DNA from: Sphingomonas insulae
GTDB taxonomy: Bacteria; Pseudomonadota; Alphaproteobacteria; Sphingomonadales; Sphingomonadaceae
Direction: 5' to 3'
Assembly: GCF_010450875.1 (NCBI RefSeq)
Contig: NZ_CP048422.1
Coordinates: 1,953,001 to 2,017,000, forward strand
DNA length: 64,000 bases
How positions within the stretch are numbered: the stretch's first letter is position 1; each line of letters begins with the position of its first letter. Positions 1 to 3,553 of this stretch are shown here, piece by piece. The translations under genes were made by a program, and so were the position numbers. The notes beneath the pieces are model-generated. The model made no database searches. It was not told the DNA's origin and was given only the letters and a program-made list of their open reading frames with translations.

Positions 1-92
1 ACCTAGGTTGCGCCGATTCGTTTCGCCACCTCGCTGCGCGAGCTTCTGTAGGATGATTACCAGTCCCCTCGCTTCTTCCTCCATGGCCAGAC

Positions 93-1298
93 CTATACCG
101 AGGCGAGGCGCCGGCTCGGGCCATAGCTGATGTCCGGATGAAAGAAGGCTAGGTATCTGACGTCGAATTGATTGTGAAAGCCCGCCCGGAACGGCTTGGC
201 TGCGTCGAACGGTATGAAGATTGAGGCGTCCTCTGCGAACACGACGTCGGCGAATTTGGCCGGGTCGTATTCGGAGCGTCCCTTGCGAACGACGTCGAGC
301 TTGAGGAGGTCTGGCCACCAGAACGCATCCTGCCCGAGCCAACCCGCATGCCCTTGGAATTTCGCACCGGCGACGTCATCGATCAACGCTTCCGCTCCGA
401 ATACGATCGCTCGATTCCACGTCGCGATATCCAAAGGATCGCCCAACTCCGGACGCATCAGGAATGGCATGCGCTGTAGCAAGTGGGGAACATCCACTAG
501 AACATTTTGTGGTCCCACCACCGCCCGCGAATACCACTTGGACAAACGCGCTACTGTCGCCGCCATAGCCCTTCGCTTATTGGACTCTATCGCTCGTGCG
601 ACCTCCTTATGTTCCGTCGACTGCATCAGGAATTTTCGAACGCTTAGCTTTTGCAAATCATCCGCGTTCGTCACCTGGTTCGACAAAAAGCCGACCGCCT
701 CATCGCTCAAAGCCGAGACATGTCGCTCCGGAAATTGCAATACATCAAGTATAGGCTGGTCGAATGCATCGAGTAGGCCGGACGTAAGATTTCCGCGGTT
801 GTCGATCACCTTTCCGATATCCGGCCAAGTCCAAGGAGCGAACGTCGCGCCATCCCTTTGTCCGCCCCAGAGAGTTTGCGAACCAATCAGAGACGAGTCG
901 ATGTTGAGATCGGCGAAGCTTTCCAAGTGACCCCGCATCTCAAGGTCGAACATGGCCTTATCGACGAACTGATTCATGACGACCACGAATGCGCAATCGG
1001 AATAAAGCCTAGCCATCCGGGCAAAGCCCTCGCCCGTATGCCGCGCATTCTGCGCATCAATCTCCAAGAGATCGTAGTCGACGACGAGAATGTCGGCTTG
1101 GTCGAATTGCGTTTCGACTTTGTCGGAGCTGCTATTCTCCGAAGTAGGGATACGCGTCAGCAGATTTCGAAATTGGGCGCGAGCATCCTCTATGCGCTCC
1201 ACGTCTACGCCTGAACCAACGGCCTTGGCTATTTGCTTCTGCCAGTCCGCCGCAAGGCTGGGATTGTCGTCGCAAACAGCGATGCGCTTAATGCTCAT
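93..1298 (-). CDS. Receiver-domain-like protein with large uncharacterised C-terminal region
   Basis: This is a 401-residue protein whose N-terminus resembles a response-regulator receiver. A beta strand leads into the acidic pair D10-D11 (CDDN), and a hydrophobic strand ends at D74 (VVDYD), the likely phosphoacceptor. The expected conserved Thr/Ser and Lys are not obvious: the strand VVVMNQF is followed by no clear K. The remaining 250-plus residues match no DNA-binding or enzymatic domain that I recognise. The ATG overlaps the TGA of the upstream GHKL gene by 4 bp (ATGA), so the two are translationally coupled and probably act together. The inferred role is output or partner of that kinase-like protein; its action is unknown. 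A degenerate receiver that binds rather than accepts phosphate is equally possible. Confidence 0.75.
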   Translation of the reverse strand: MSIKRIAVCDDNPSLAADWQKQIAKAVGSGVDVERIEDARAQFRNLLTRIPTSENSSSDKVETQFDQADILVVDYDLLEIDAQNARHTGEGFARMARLYSDCAFVVVMNQFVDKAMFDLEMRGHLESFADLNIDSSLIGSQTLWGGQRDGATFAPWTWPDIGKVIDNRGNLTSGLLDAFDQPILDVLQFPERHVSALSDEAVGFLSNQVTNADDLQKLSVRKFLMQSTEHKEVARAIESNKRRAMAATVARLSKWYSRAVVGPQNVLVDVPHLLQRMPFLMRPELGDPLDIATWNRAIVFGAEALIDDVAGAKFQGHAGWLGQDAFWWPDLLKLDVVRKGRSEYDPAKFADVVFAEDASIFIPFDAAKPFRAGFHNQFDVRYLAFFHPDISYGPSRRLASV

Positions 1299-3553
1299 TC
1301 ACCGCTACTCCAGCTAATTTGAAATGTCGTCGGACCGCCGTCTTCTACGAATCTGACCTGGCATCCGCGCAAGCTTGCGATCATCCGCACGATCGTCAAA
1401 CCAAGACCCATACCGCCCAATCCTAAAGCCGAGCGTTCGGACGACGCCACCTGCCGCCGCCTGAATGGCTCGAAGTAGGTGTGTGAGCTGGGAACGTCTA
1501 TGGGAAGTCCGTTGTTGCTGATGCGCAGCCAACTACTGCGTCCTGTCCGCCCGAACCGGAAGGCAATTCGGGGCTCGTCTATATCAAGCATTGCATTCGC
1601 TGCGTTAACCAACACGTTTTGCAATAGAGCATGCCAATCGGCGAATGTCGCTGGTGGGAAATAGACATGACCGGGAATATCTATTTCCGTGGCTACGCGC
1701 GGCATGAGTGGCTCGGTCGCCCGTATCACCTCCTCGACGACGCTACGGACCTGCAACGCTTCCACGACATCACGGTCTTCCTGGCTTAGCATCGGAGCAA
1801 AGATGCGCCGAGTGGCTTCCAACCGATTGAGCCAAGTGTCGATGTCGCCTGCGACACCCGAAACTTCCGGATCGTCGATCCGGGCCGCAATGGATTTCAG
1901 GCGGCGGACCAATTGACGCCCGAGCCGTATCTCCTTCTTGTTCTCATGTTCCAGGGCGAGGGCGGCCATGCCAGTCGATGCGAGCGAGCCGAGTAGCGAT
2001 CTCTCGGCATCGTCGGCCTCGCTCTGCTTGGCTATCGACGTGCCTAATTCGATGATCTCCGAGGATATATTTCGAATGATCTCGTCATCGGGATATCGGA
2101 TCGTAGCGGTCTGGGCCAGATCCTCAAGACCGGCGACCCTGGCTATGGGCGGCAGCGACGGCCGCACGATCTCTATCATGCGATCGGCACGGATGCGCTG
2201 TCTTGTGGCGTAGTAGTCGATCGACGAGCGTACCGCCTGAGCCAGCTGCTCGAACGCGTCGTTGCCGGCAAGGCGATCGCGCGTGATCAGGATCTTGAGA
2301 TATTCGCCGCTGGTTCGCTGTTCCGACGTAGCTGCGGCGTATTCCGCGCCTGTGTTGATCCTCACCACGCCTAGAATACGGCCCTGCGTCGGCAAATCGT
2401 TTAGGGCACGGCTCGCCTGCAAGCGCGACGGCAGCAGGGTGGACGCCGACTTTCGGTGTGAGTGATCGAACTCGATACCCAACCAGTCGGTTTCCGCTCC
2501 ATAGTAGGGCAACTTGAAGCCGCTATCGTAAAGCGTCACGCCGCCGAACTTTTGGAGATAATCGCGCGCATCCTGAACGGGAACGTTGCCGGGCTGCCTT
2601 CCGACGAAGTCGTAGATGCGGATCTGCCATTGCGCTTCGTGGACGAACCAGTCCGGCCAGGTGTCGAAGTCACGCAGATCCTCGATGGGCCAGCTGTCGT
2701 GCAGGCGCTCGCCGTCCGCGAAGCGTAAATCCACGTCGACGAAATGCCTATCGCCTTCGCTGCGGACGGATCCAACGATCGCAGCGTGCCAGCTGTCGAT
2801 GATCGCGCGCATCTGATTGGAGAACGTGGTGTCGAGGCCAGGGCGATCGGTATCGAAACCGATGGTGAAATCGAGTTCGTCGCTGTCACCGGTGGACCGG
2901 CTTCCCCATCCGGCGAACGGCGATTGCAGGCTCCAGATCTGCCTGCCCAGCAACTTGATATCTTCTTCGGCCCACCCCTGCTTCAATTCCTCCATGATCA
3001 CGGTCGTACCGGTGGCACTTCCACCGGGGTACAATCCGGACCCCGCCGGCTCCGATTTGTACTGCGCCTGCGCGTTCGTCAGCAAGCCAGCCTCTACGGC
3101 CGTGTCCCAATCGACCAGGGCGTGCAATCGCCTGCTCAAGTCCTCTTCCGACGTGGTGACTAACTGCATCCGGTGAGCGAGGAATTGCGCTGATAGGCGA
3201 CCAACGCCTTTCGAACCTGTAGTGGACCGACCGAATTTACGGCTGCGGGTGATCCGCTGCTTGTTTCGGGTGCCGATCGTCATCCAATGTTGCTGGAACT
3301 CGGCTGTGCTCATGCCGTGACCGTTGTCGGACACGGTAATCCTATTACCTTGCAGTCTGATCTGGCAGATCGTGGCGTCTGCGTCGTAAGCGTTTTTAAC
3401 CAATTCGGCGAGCGCCGTATATGGCTGACCCACCAAGCGCTCGCCCAACTCCCGTATGAGAGCGGAGTCTGCCGAAAATGGGAAGGGCTCGTAAGCGGGG
3501 TCTTCCGCTTCGATCGTGAAGTCGTCGACCGTATCGGAGACGTCGATGGTCAC
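1295..3553 (-). CDS. Dual-GHKL ATPase: Hsp90/MORC-like N-terminus plus histidine-kinase-like C-terminus
   Basis: This 752-residue protein carries two separate GHKL ATP-binding modules. The N-terminal one has an N-box with E50 and N54 (ELVKNAYDADA), a DNGHGM motif at 76-81 and a GSKGVG lid motif at 113-118, as in Hsp90/MutL/MORC-type ATPases. The C-terminal one looks like a histidine kinase: an H-box-like LALEHENKK near residue 536, an N-box around 645-650, an F-box (YFEPF) and a G2 box GLGGMGLG at 711-718. The G1 motif reads SNNG, so the usual Asp is Asn. There is no transmembrane segment, so it should be cytosolic. The start is GTG with GAGG about 9 nt upstream. It lies 81 nt downstream of the S24 repressor on the same strand and overlaps its receiver-like partner. 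Whether it phosphorylates that partner is inference. Confidence 0.8.
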   Translation of the reverse strand: MTIDVSDTVDDFTIEAEDPAYEPFPFSADSALIRELGERLVGQPYTALAELVKNAYDADATICQIRLQGNRITVSDNGHGMSTAEFQQHWMTIGTRNKQRITRSRKFGRSTTGSKGVGRLSAQFLAHRMQLVTTSEEDLSRRLHALVDWDTAVEAGLLTNAQAQYKSEPAGSGLYPGGSATGTTVIMEELKQGWAEEDIKLLGRQIWSLQSPFAGWGSRSTGDSDELDFTIGFDTDRPGLDTTFSNQMRAIIDSWHAAIVGSVRSEGDRHFVDVDLRFADGERLHDSWPIEDLRDFDTWPDWFVHEAQWQIRIYDFVGRQPGNVPVQDARDYLQKFGGVTLYDSGFKLPYYGAETDWLGIEFDHSHRKSASTLLPSRLQASRALNDLPTQGRILGVVRINTGAEYAAATSEQRTSGEYLKILITRDRLAGNDAFEQLAQAVRSSIDYYATRQRIRADRMIEIVRPSLPPIARVAGLEDLAQTATIRYPDDEIIRNISSEIIELGTSIAKQSEADDAERSLLGSLASTGMAALALEHENKKEIRLGRQLVRRLKSIAARIDDPEVSGVAGDIDTWLNRLEATRRIFAPMLSQEDRDVVEALQVRSVVEEVIRATEPLMPRVATEIDIPGHVYFPPATFADWHALLQNVLVNAANAMLDIDEPRIAFRFGRTGRSSWLRISNNGLPIDVPSSHTYFEPFRRRQVASSERSALGLGGMGLGLTIVRMIASLRGCQVRFVEDGGPTTFQISWSSGE

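Follow-up and report, generated by a model that had tools for sequence, protein, structure and literature searches.

Kinases that combine HATPase_c_3, HEF_HK and HATPase_c domains, paired with Response_reg_2 proteins and encoded near C5 methylases and Vsr, have been described previously (Bellieny-Rabelo 2021, PubMed Central (PMC) entry PMC8011034); the available parts of that paper link them to paraMORC, offer a regulatory role and mention neighbouring orthologous groups without naming them, and no third component is proposed in its abstract, introduction, results or discussion. The paraMORC GHKL ATPases themselves had been placed in restriction-modification (R-M) neighbourhoods (Iyer 2008, PMC2292703, in the text available). 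Here we analyse a related locus at the edge of a 64,000-nucleotide stretch of the Sphingomonas insulae contig NZ_CP048422.1, referred to below as the window (genome G000, C4:1953001-2017000; coordinates are window-based unless prefixed C4). Five co-directional genes on the minus strand encode a dual-ATPase kinase (HK), a receiver-like protein (RR), a third protein (X), a C5 DNA methyltransferase and Vsr, and the window edge cuts this operon, leaving the three genes to the left of RR (X for the most part, the methyltransferase and Vsr) outside (Table 1). The initial annotation did not recognise a described system, but the domain architecture, the kinase-partner pairing and the nearby C5 methylase and Vsr have been in print since 2021; what is new here is the third component X and the changing DNA-modification partner. 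On balance, we consider it probable that the window holds the beginning of a mobile immune cassette coupled to DNA modification, in which the HK-RR-X triad fills the restriction slot and is switched by its kinase-receiver part.

Comparison with the closest families sets the locus apart from each of them. With the HEF_HK/Response_reg_2 pair (PF19191/PF19192) it has in common a triple-domain soluble kinase, an adjacent receiver-like gene, a C5 methylase and Vsr, but the window HK stays below the HEF_HK cut-off (13.5 and 16.8 bits versus 24.1), Response_reg_2 finds no match in RR (P0002) at E <= 1 nor in G000 at E <= 0.001, the kinases separate in the HK tree, and X is carried in addition; a plain filing under this family was thus rejected by both Pfam tests and by the tree. 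The N-terminal GHKL ATPase and the C5 methylase and Vsr neighbourhoods recall the paraMORC ATPases as presented in the available text of PMC2292703, to which the window adds a C-terminal kinase module, a receiver and X, with no helicase gene identified in the operon. The best-scoring NCBIfam model for the HK N-terminus is that of the BbrUII/HgiDII restriction enzymes (NF050001; residues 29-204, E 1.2e-23), with which the N-terminal ATPase is common, although the score of 83.6 bits (model positions 6-181 of 659) compares with a cut-off of 550; likewise, HK scores 24.2 bits against MzaB of the MZA system, for which the cut-off is 850. A relay from a kinase to a receiver is known from Detocs, where it leads to an effector of the purine-nucleoside-phosphorylase type. 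The phosphorothioate-sensing effectors DndFGH, SspE and DndI occupy an effector slot beside Dnd or Ssp modification genes, and the ATPase of DndI is stimulated by modified self DNA (PMC11662687, available text); their descriptions, as far as available, mention no kinase-receiver relay and set them apart on that ground. In the accessible text of PMC10853773 the terms MORC, GHKL, receiver, Hsp90 and two-component never occur, that of PMC12839542 holds nothing on an HK-RR pair, and among the matches listed from the open-licence PMC literature none ascribes to the pair an experimentally tested function, a third gene or a connection to Dnd or Ssp. As in type II R-M systems, a DNA methyltransferase is present (PF00145); family searches recognised no cognate restriction endonuclease in HK, RR or X, while Vsr is present, and X or RR could be a restriction endonuclease of unrecognised type.

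The three genes recur together well beyond the window. Searching 84,980 species, each represented by a single genome, with HK gave 116 relatives, the best 80 of which were taken as loci; a scan of viral contigs added 42 loci. HK also matched 99 plasmid records, and the annotation of six of these was examined. The 129 loci with an HK match comprise 25 of clade A (close to P0001), 59 of clade B and 45 of neither, the last being L014 and L015, which both represent the window's own copy, HKs at contig ends or in fragments (L018, L098, L053, L076 and L083 among them) and relatives without an X-profile match. An RR homologue adjoins HK in all 25 clade A loci, split into two open reading frames (ORFs) in L009 and L023, and X follows RR in 24 of them, the exception (L032) ending 284 bases past RR. 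In clade B, a receiver-like gene of ~360 amino acids and a third gene of ~250 amino acids were both matched in the 59 loci; under a strict rule, HK, RR and X are neighbours in this order on one strand in 57 of them, with over-long or broken ORFs in L054 and L062. The two-gene system proposed in the initial annotation was therefore half right: the HK-RR pair is real and does co-occur elsewhere, but two genes alone do not make up the system, since X and a DNA-modification partner recur across loci.

Membership of clade B was defined by the presence of its third gene (X_B) among loci fetched by HK, and searches starting from the third gene served as a control. With profile A7, these gave hits in 2 of 398 Pseudomonadota and 3 of 395 Bacteroidota genomes (phylum taken from tree labels); one hit was L078 again, and the other four (L157, L162, L163 and L164) all showed HK-RR-X in order. 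These four are not re-finds, because none of their X proteins exceeds 33% identity to an X from the earlier loci (best hits shown). Clade B includes identical pairs (L101/L108 and L080/L112, as seen in the tree) and near copies (L056-L058), so that its counts do not stand for 59 independent events. The family does not behave as a widespread housekeeping gene, in line with what had been supposed: among 61 close genomes a single one contained P0002, and among 385 genomes of the class a single one matched the A3 profile, both times the window's own copy. HK relatives are carried on plasmids and predicted viral contigs, and their distribution is sporadic.

When 99 HKs were placed in a tree, those of clade A lay on one side of a branch with support of 100. 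Another branch, also with support of 100, sets the 83 rows of clades A and B apart from three rows of Response_reg_2-type kinases and 13 relatives without X. This is a quick tree with Shimodaira-Hasegawa-like approximate likelihood ratio (SH-aLRT) support alone, which covers 13 hand-picked X-less relatives and three of the four Response_reg_2 loci and has L107 on a long branch; L018 is in the tree and outside the 25 neighbourhood loci, L009 the reverse on account of its broken HK, and L062, with a short HK, is out of the tree. Members of the Response_reg_2 family itself turned up in 4 of 376 genomes of the class, with HKs of 979-993 amino acids in three loci and a 490-amino-acid piece in the fourth; a C5 methylase was matched in three of the four (L145 begins at a contig start), and no gene in the four regions was matched by either X profile at E <= 0.01. 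Two further arrangements were observed on viral contigs. Dual-GHKL kinases of ~700-795 amino acids in L110, L111, L114, L116 and L118-L123 are followed by a partner of 443-465 amino acids; these partners form one BLAST cluster of 10 with no X-profile match, apparently another variant in predicted viruses. A shorter three-gene form is seen in L113 and L134-L136, where the kinase is followed by proteins of ~210-225 and 184-214 amino acids, the third genes forming a separate cluster of 4.

The DNA-modification gene beside the triad changes from one group of loci to another. Using profiles for C5 and Eco57I-type enzymes, we found a C5 methyltransferase within 6 kb of the triad in all 25 clade A loci, at less than 500 bp in 17. 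In clade B, 52 of the 59 loci contain an Eco57I-type methyltransferase (within 500 bp in 48 of the 52) and one a C5 enzyme; PF07669 is present in 51/51 members of the clade B methylase cluster. Seven clade B loci have neither methylase, and five of these (5/59) constitute one Bacteroidota clade with phosphorothioation genes: DndCDE in L046 and L089, SspBCD in L079 and L072, and in L078 a DndB/DpdB-like gene plus DndCDE about 9 kb away (calls by PADLOC for L046, L078, L079 and L072, and by phmmer against L046 for L089 and L154). The triad follows the modification genes in the orders DndC-DndD-DndE-HK-RR-X (L046) and SspB-SspC-SspD-HK-RR-X (L079). L046:1717-12401 is a compact island with a resolvase-like gene, DndC-DndD-DndE, HK-RR-X and a tyrosine-recombinase-like gene, and no DndFGH was found among the ORFs of 110 amino acids or more between the two recombinase-like genes, which were named by eye. 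The loci reached from the third gene repeat this range of partners, with Eco57I-type enzymes in L157 (plus a C5 match), L163 and L164 and SspBCD in L162, where the Ssp genes rest on phmmer against L079. In L072, an 850-amino-acid ORF lies between SspC and HK (L072:4271-6823) and SspD comes after X, the triad being inserted within the Ssp cluster. Vsr occurs in 17/25 clade A and 2/59 clade B loci, which rules it out as an obligatory effector; in L008:5095-6759 and L031:7977-9662 one ORF matches both C5 methylase and Vsr, possibly representing methylase-Vsr fusions.

Profile searches bore out the two ATPase modules that had been noticed in HK, both well above the Pfam cut-off. The residues of a canonical two-component kinase, the H-box histidine and the ATP-site asparagines, are present (H536, N646 and N650), the latter two each being kept in 98/99 homologues. 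E50 and H536, which the initial annotation had singled out, are both invariant (Table 1). The peak 19-residue hydropathy of HK is 1.57, just below the usual membrane threshold of 1.6, in agreement with a soluble protein without a membrane segment, as initially annotated. Because it resembles MutL and GHKL restriction enzymes, the N-terminal ATPase is likely to be a DNA-facing sensor. Elsewhere in the genome, G000 C4:2561104-2561403 gives a second strong HATPase_c_3 match (48.9 bits, in a 627-amino-acid frame), by our guess probably MutL itself.

The ATG of RR and the TGA of HK overlap by 4 bp, as had been noted, and the receiver-like nature of RR is borne out by structure rather than by family profiles: Pfam gave nothing better than E 0.1, and Response_reg_2 was matched in 0/32 clade B RRs at E <= 0.1. 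For the AlphaFold2 model of RR (predicted local distance difference test (pLDDT) 90, predicted template modelling score (pTM) 0.88), the best Foldseek matches are receiver domains with probability up to 1.00 but modest E-values (best 5e-3, none <= 1e-3). D10 and D11, like the putative phosphorylated D74 (Table 1), are invariant in the 19 clade A RRs of alignment A8, which leaves out L008, L009, L023, L025, L026 and L033. The RR profiles of clades A and B are related (hhalign probability 97.4%, E 1.5e-11).

For X, the 23 members compared with Pfam and NCBIfam gave nothing below E 0.04. The X model (m64bd4aca559e; pLDDT 88, pTM 0.88) found no Foldseek match at E <= 1e-3, the best being 0.24 in the PDB and 9e-3 in BFVD, and the predicted fold is possibly new. 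Two motifs, R-x-E and H-x3-H-x-Q, are invariant in 20/20 X sequences, and the X and X_B profiles are alike in position, size and motif ([RH]-x-[ED], then H-x3-H-x-Q in most). Residues 180-198 of the window X are strongly hydrophobic (19-residue hydropathy 1.95) and lie within a long model helix (185-211), through which X may contact the membrane.

The setting of the operon is that of a temperate phage, as had been surmised. All of the 10,457 bases compared (10,457/10,457) match part of a 38,905-bp IMG/VR viral contig without a difference, which places the operon inside a predicted prophage; the S24-type repressor gene is co-directional with the operon and lies 81 bp upstream of the HK start. 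An integrase-like match at C4:1923697, about 30 kb to the left, is weak (22 bits versus a cut-off of 27.1), and phage tail genes were seen to the left of the operon; tail genes, recombinases, GMP reductase, and integrase-like and cI-like genes were named by eye here and in the other loci, the tail genes with no family search. Three other prophages (L102, L105 and L109), P2-like as judged by eye, have an integrase-like gene, methyltransferase-HK-RR-X and then a cI-like repressor on the opposite strand; at most two small ORFs, with no identity assigned, accompany them (L102 has one on either side of the methylase-triad block, L109 one on the side facing cI). The window operon likewise adjoins a repressor, co-directional with it. 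The interval between cI and integrase in a P2-related Vibrionaceae phage has been reported to be a defence hotspot (PMC9122126, available text). The suggestion of an exclusion or defence role thus gains plausibility from the DNA-modification neighbours and from three prophages with a position comparable to that hotspot.

Table 1. Coordinates of the operon, its domains and key residues, and the adjacent repressor
Feature	Position	Strand	Evidence or remark
HK, 752 aa from GTG	1295..3553	-	N-terminal paraMORC/Hsp90-like GHKL ATPase and C-terminal histidine-kinase module
HATPase_c_3 of HK, residues 46-149	3107..3418	-	Pfam E 4.3e-20
E50 of HK	3404-3406	-	Invariant in 99/99 aligned homologues
H536 of HK, putative phospho-accepting histidine	1946..1948	-	Invariant in 99/99 aligned homologues
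HATPase_c of HK, residues 641-747	1313..1633	-	Pfam E 1.6e-16
RR, 401 aa, receiver-like, C-terminal region of unknown fold	93..1298	-	Model, Foldseek and alignment
D74 of RR, putative phosphorylated aspartate	1077..1079	-	Invariant in 19/19 aligned clade A RRs (A8)
X, first 28 codons of third gene	1..84	-	Start at window 84, 8 bp past RR stop
X, whole gene, 235 aa	G000 C4:1952377-1953084	-	Mostly left of window
C5 DNA methyltransferase	C4:1951268-1952368, from first plausible ATG	same strand as HK	PF00145 E 7.3e-48
Vsr	C4:1950813-1951268	same strand as HK	PF03852 E 8.6e-31
S24-type phage repressor	3635 to about 4360	-	Peptidase_S24 E 4.6e-9, phrog_4 E 5e-22; start codon inferred

Since HK, RR and the third gene are kept together, occur with DNA-marking systems that differ in their chemistry, and are accompanied by no recognised nuclease in the three prophage cassettes, we propose that the triad serves as the effector part of a modification-based defence. 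Resident DNA would be marked by the methyltransferase, or in relatives by an Eco57I-type methylase or a set of phosphorothioation enzymes, and HK-RR-X would occupy the place of a restriction enzyme, DndFGH or SspE. The paraMORC ATPase of HK would engage DNA and report a missing self mark, nucleotide-driven clamping would activate the C-terminal kinase, H536 would be phosphorylated and the phosphate would pass to D74 of RR; phospho-RR together with X would then stop the invader, whether through an attack on its DNA or through arrest of the host. In this scheme, the kinase half and RR would act as the switch, with the C-terminal region of RR and X as effector candidates. More tentatively, HK-RR-X may be a plug-in effector that reads several self marks (C5-methyl, Eco57I-type methyl and phosphorothioate) through a His-Asp relay, with X as a new effector fold; this would be a form of innate immunity in which the discrimination of self from non-self DNA is transduced by kinase signalling, an extension that we regard as possible rather than probable.

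Several observations weigh against this proposal. The function of the cassette, its effector and the phosphotransfer are predictions from genes and models; HK, RR and X contain no recognised nuclease or toxin domain, and of the proteins scanned with PADLOC (P0002, the window X, two other RRs, one from each clade, and two clade B X proteins) none is matched by a model. The canonical receiver set (acidic pair, Asp, T/S and Lys) is incomplete in the window-type RR, in which T/S and a conserved Lys are missing: the T/S position is N109 in 19/19 clade A sequences of A8, and no Lys is found among its invariant or nearly invariant columns. Phosphotransfer may therefore be lost in clade A, where the alignment would be compatible with a phosphorylation-independent switch, clade B keeping S/T at this position in 29/32 RRs. 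Homology of clade A X and clade B X_B is not proven by profile comparison (hhalign probability 6.8% and 2.3%); against column shuffles, the A7 score of 25.1 beat 30/30, and the A11 score of 22.4 was exceeded by 1/30. Clade does not strictly determine the partner, because 8/25 clade A loci also hold an Eco57I-type methylase, with weaker C5 matches there (1e-12 to 1e-23), which rules out an exclusive C5 link for clade A. L040 and L103 have no modification gene on the available sequence; L040 stops 60 bases past X, and no ORF in the 6.9 kb that precede its HK is such a gene, while L103 starts within HK. Finally, the positions of the triads in L102, L105 and L109 are likened to the published hotspot as comparable, by an analogy that nowhere assumes membership of the phage group.

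The kinase-receiver architecture, the R-M neighbourhoods reported in the available text of PMC8011034 and the lack of a recognised effector domain in the triad would also fit a regulatory two-component system, in which HK-RR tunes the expression or activity of neighbouring R-M genes, as that paper speculated. We consider this unlikely, since L102, L105 and L109 contain a methylase and the triad with no recognised restriction gene to be regulated (as judged by eye, apart from the small ORFs of no assigned identity), the partners vary from methylases to Dnd and Ssp, and the third gene is retained with HK and RR. An ATP-dependent restriction complex that dispenses with phosphotransfer, in which the paraMORC part clamps, the kinase-like part dimerises and RR or X is an unrecognised nuclease, would accommodate the kinship of the HK N-terminus to BbrUII/HgiDII, the degenerate receiver of clade A and the invariant motifs of X, and has a parallel in VcSduA, a GHKL ATPase-nuclease that restricts phages (PMC12137116, available text). 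Yet H536, N646 and N650 are conserved to an extent that would be needless for a mere dimeriser, the RR model matches receivers and the X model matches no known fold, and this reading appears decidedly unlikely.

An operon that couples methylation to Vsr-type mismatch repair or to chromosome conformation, with no part in immunity, would be in keeping with the frequency of Vsr in clade A and with the MutL-like ATPase of HK. The near absence of Vsr from clade B, the sporadic distribution and the carriage by plasmids and predicted viral contigs make such epigenetic housekeeping very improbable. We thus favour the modification-coupled immune cassette. Restriction is usually pictured as a marker enzyme and a cutter; here, a kinase-receiver pair and an unclassified protein stand in the slot of the cutter, beside several types of marker. 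If the cassette is immune, it would link DNA marks to phosphotransfer signalling and provide a function for a family described in 2021 without one, a hypothesis that the third gene makes directly testable.

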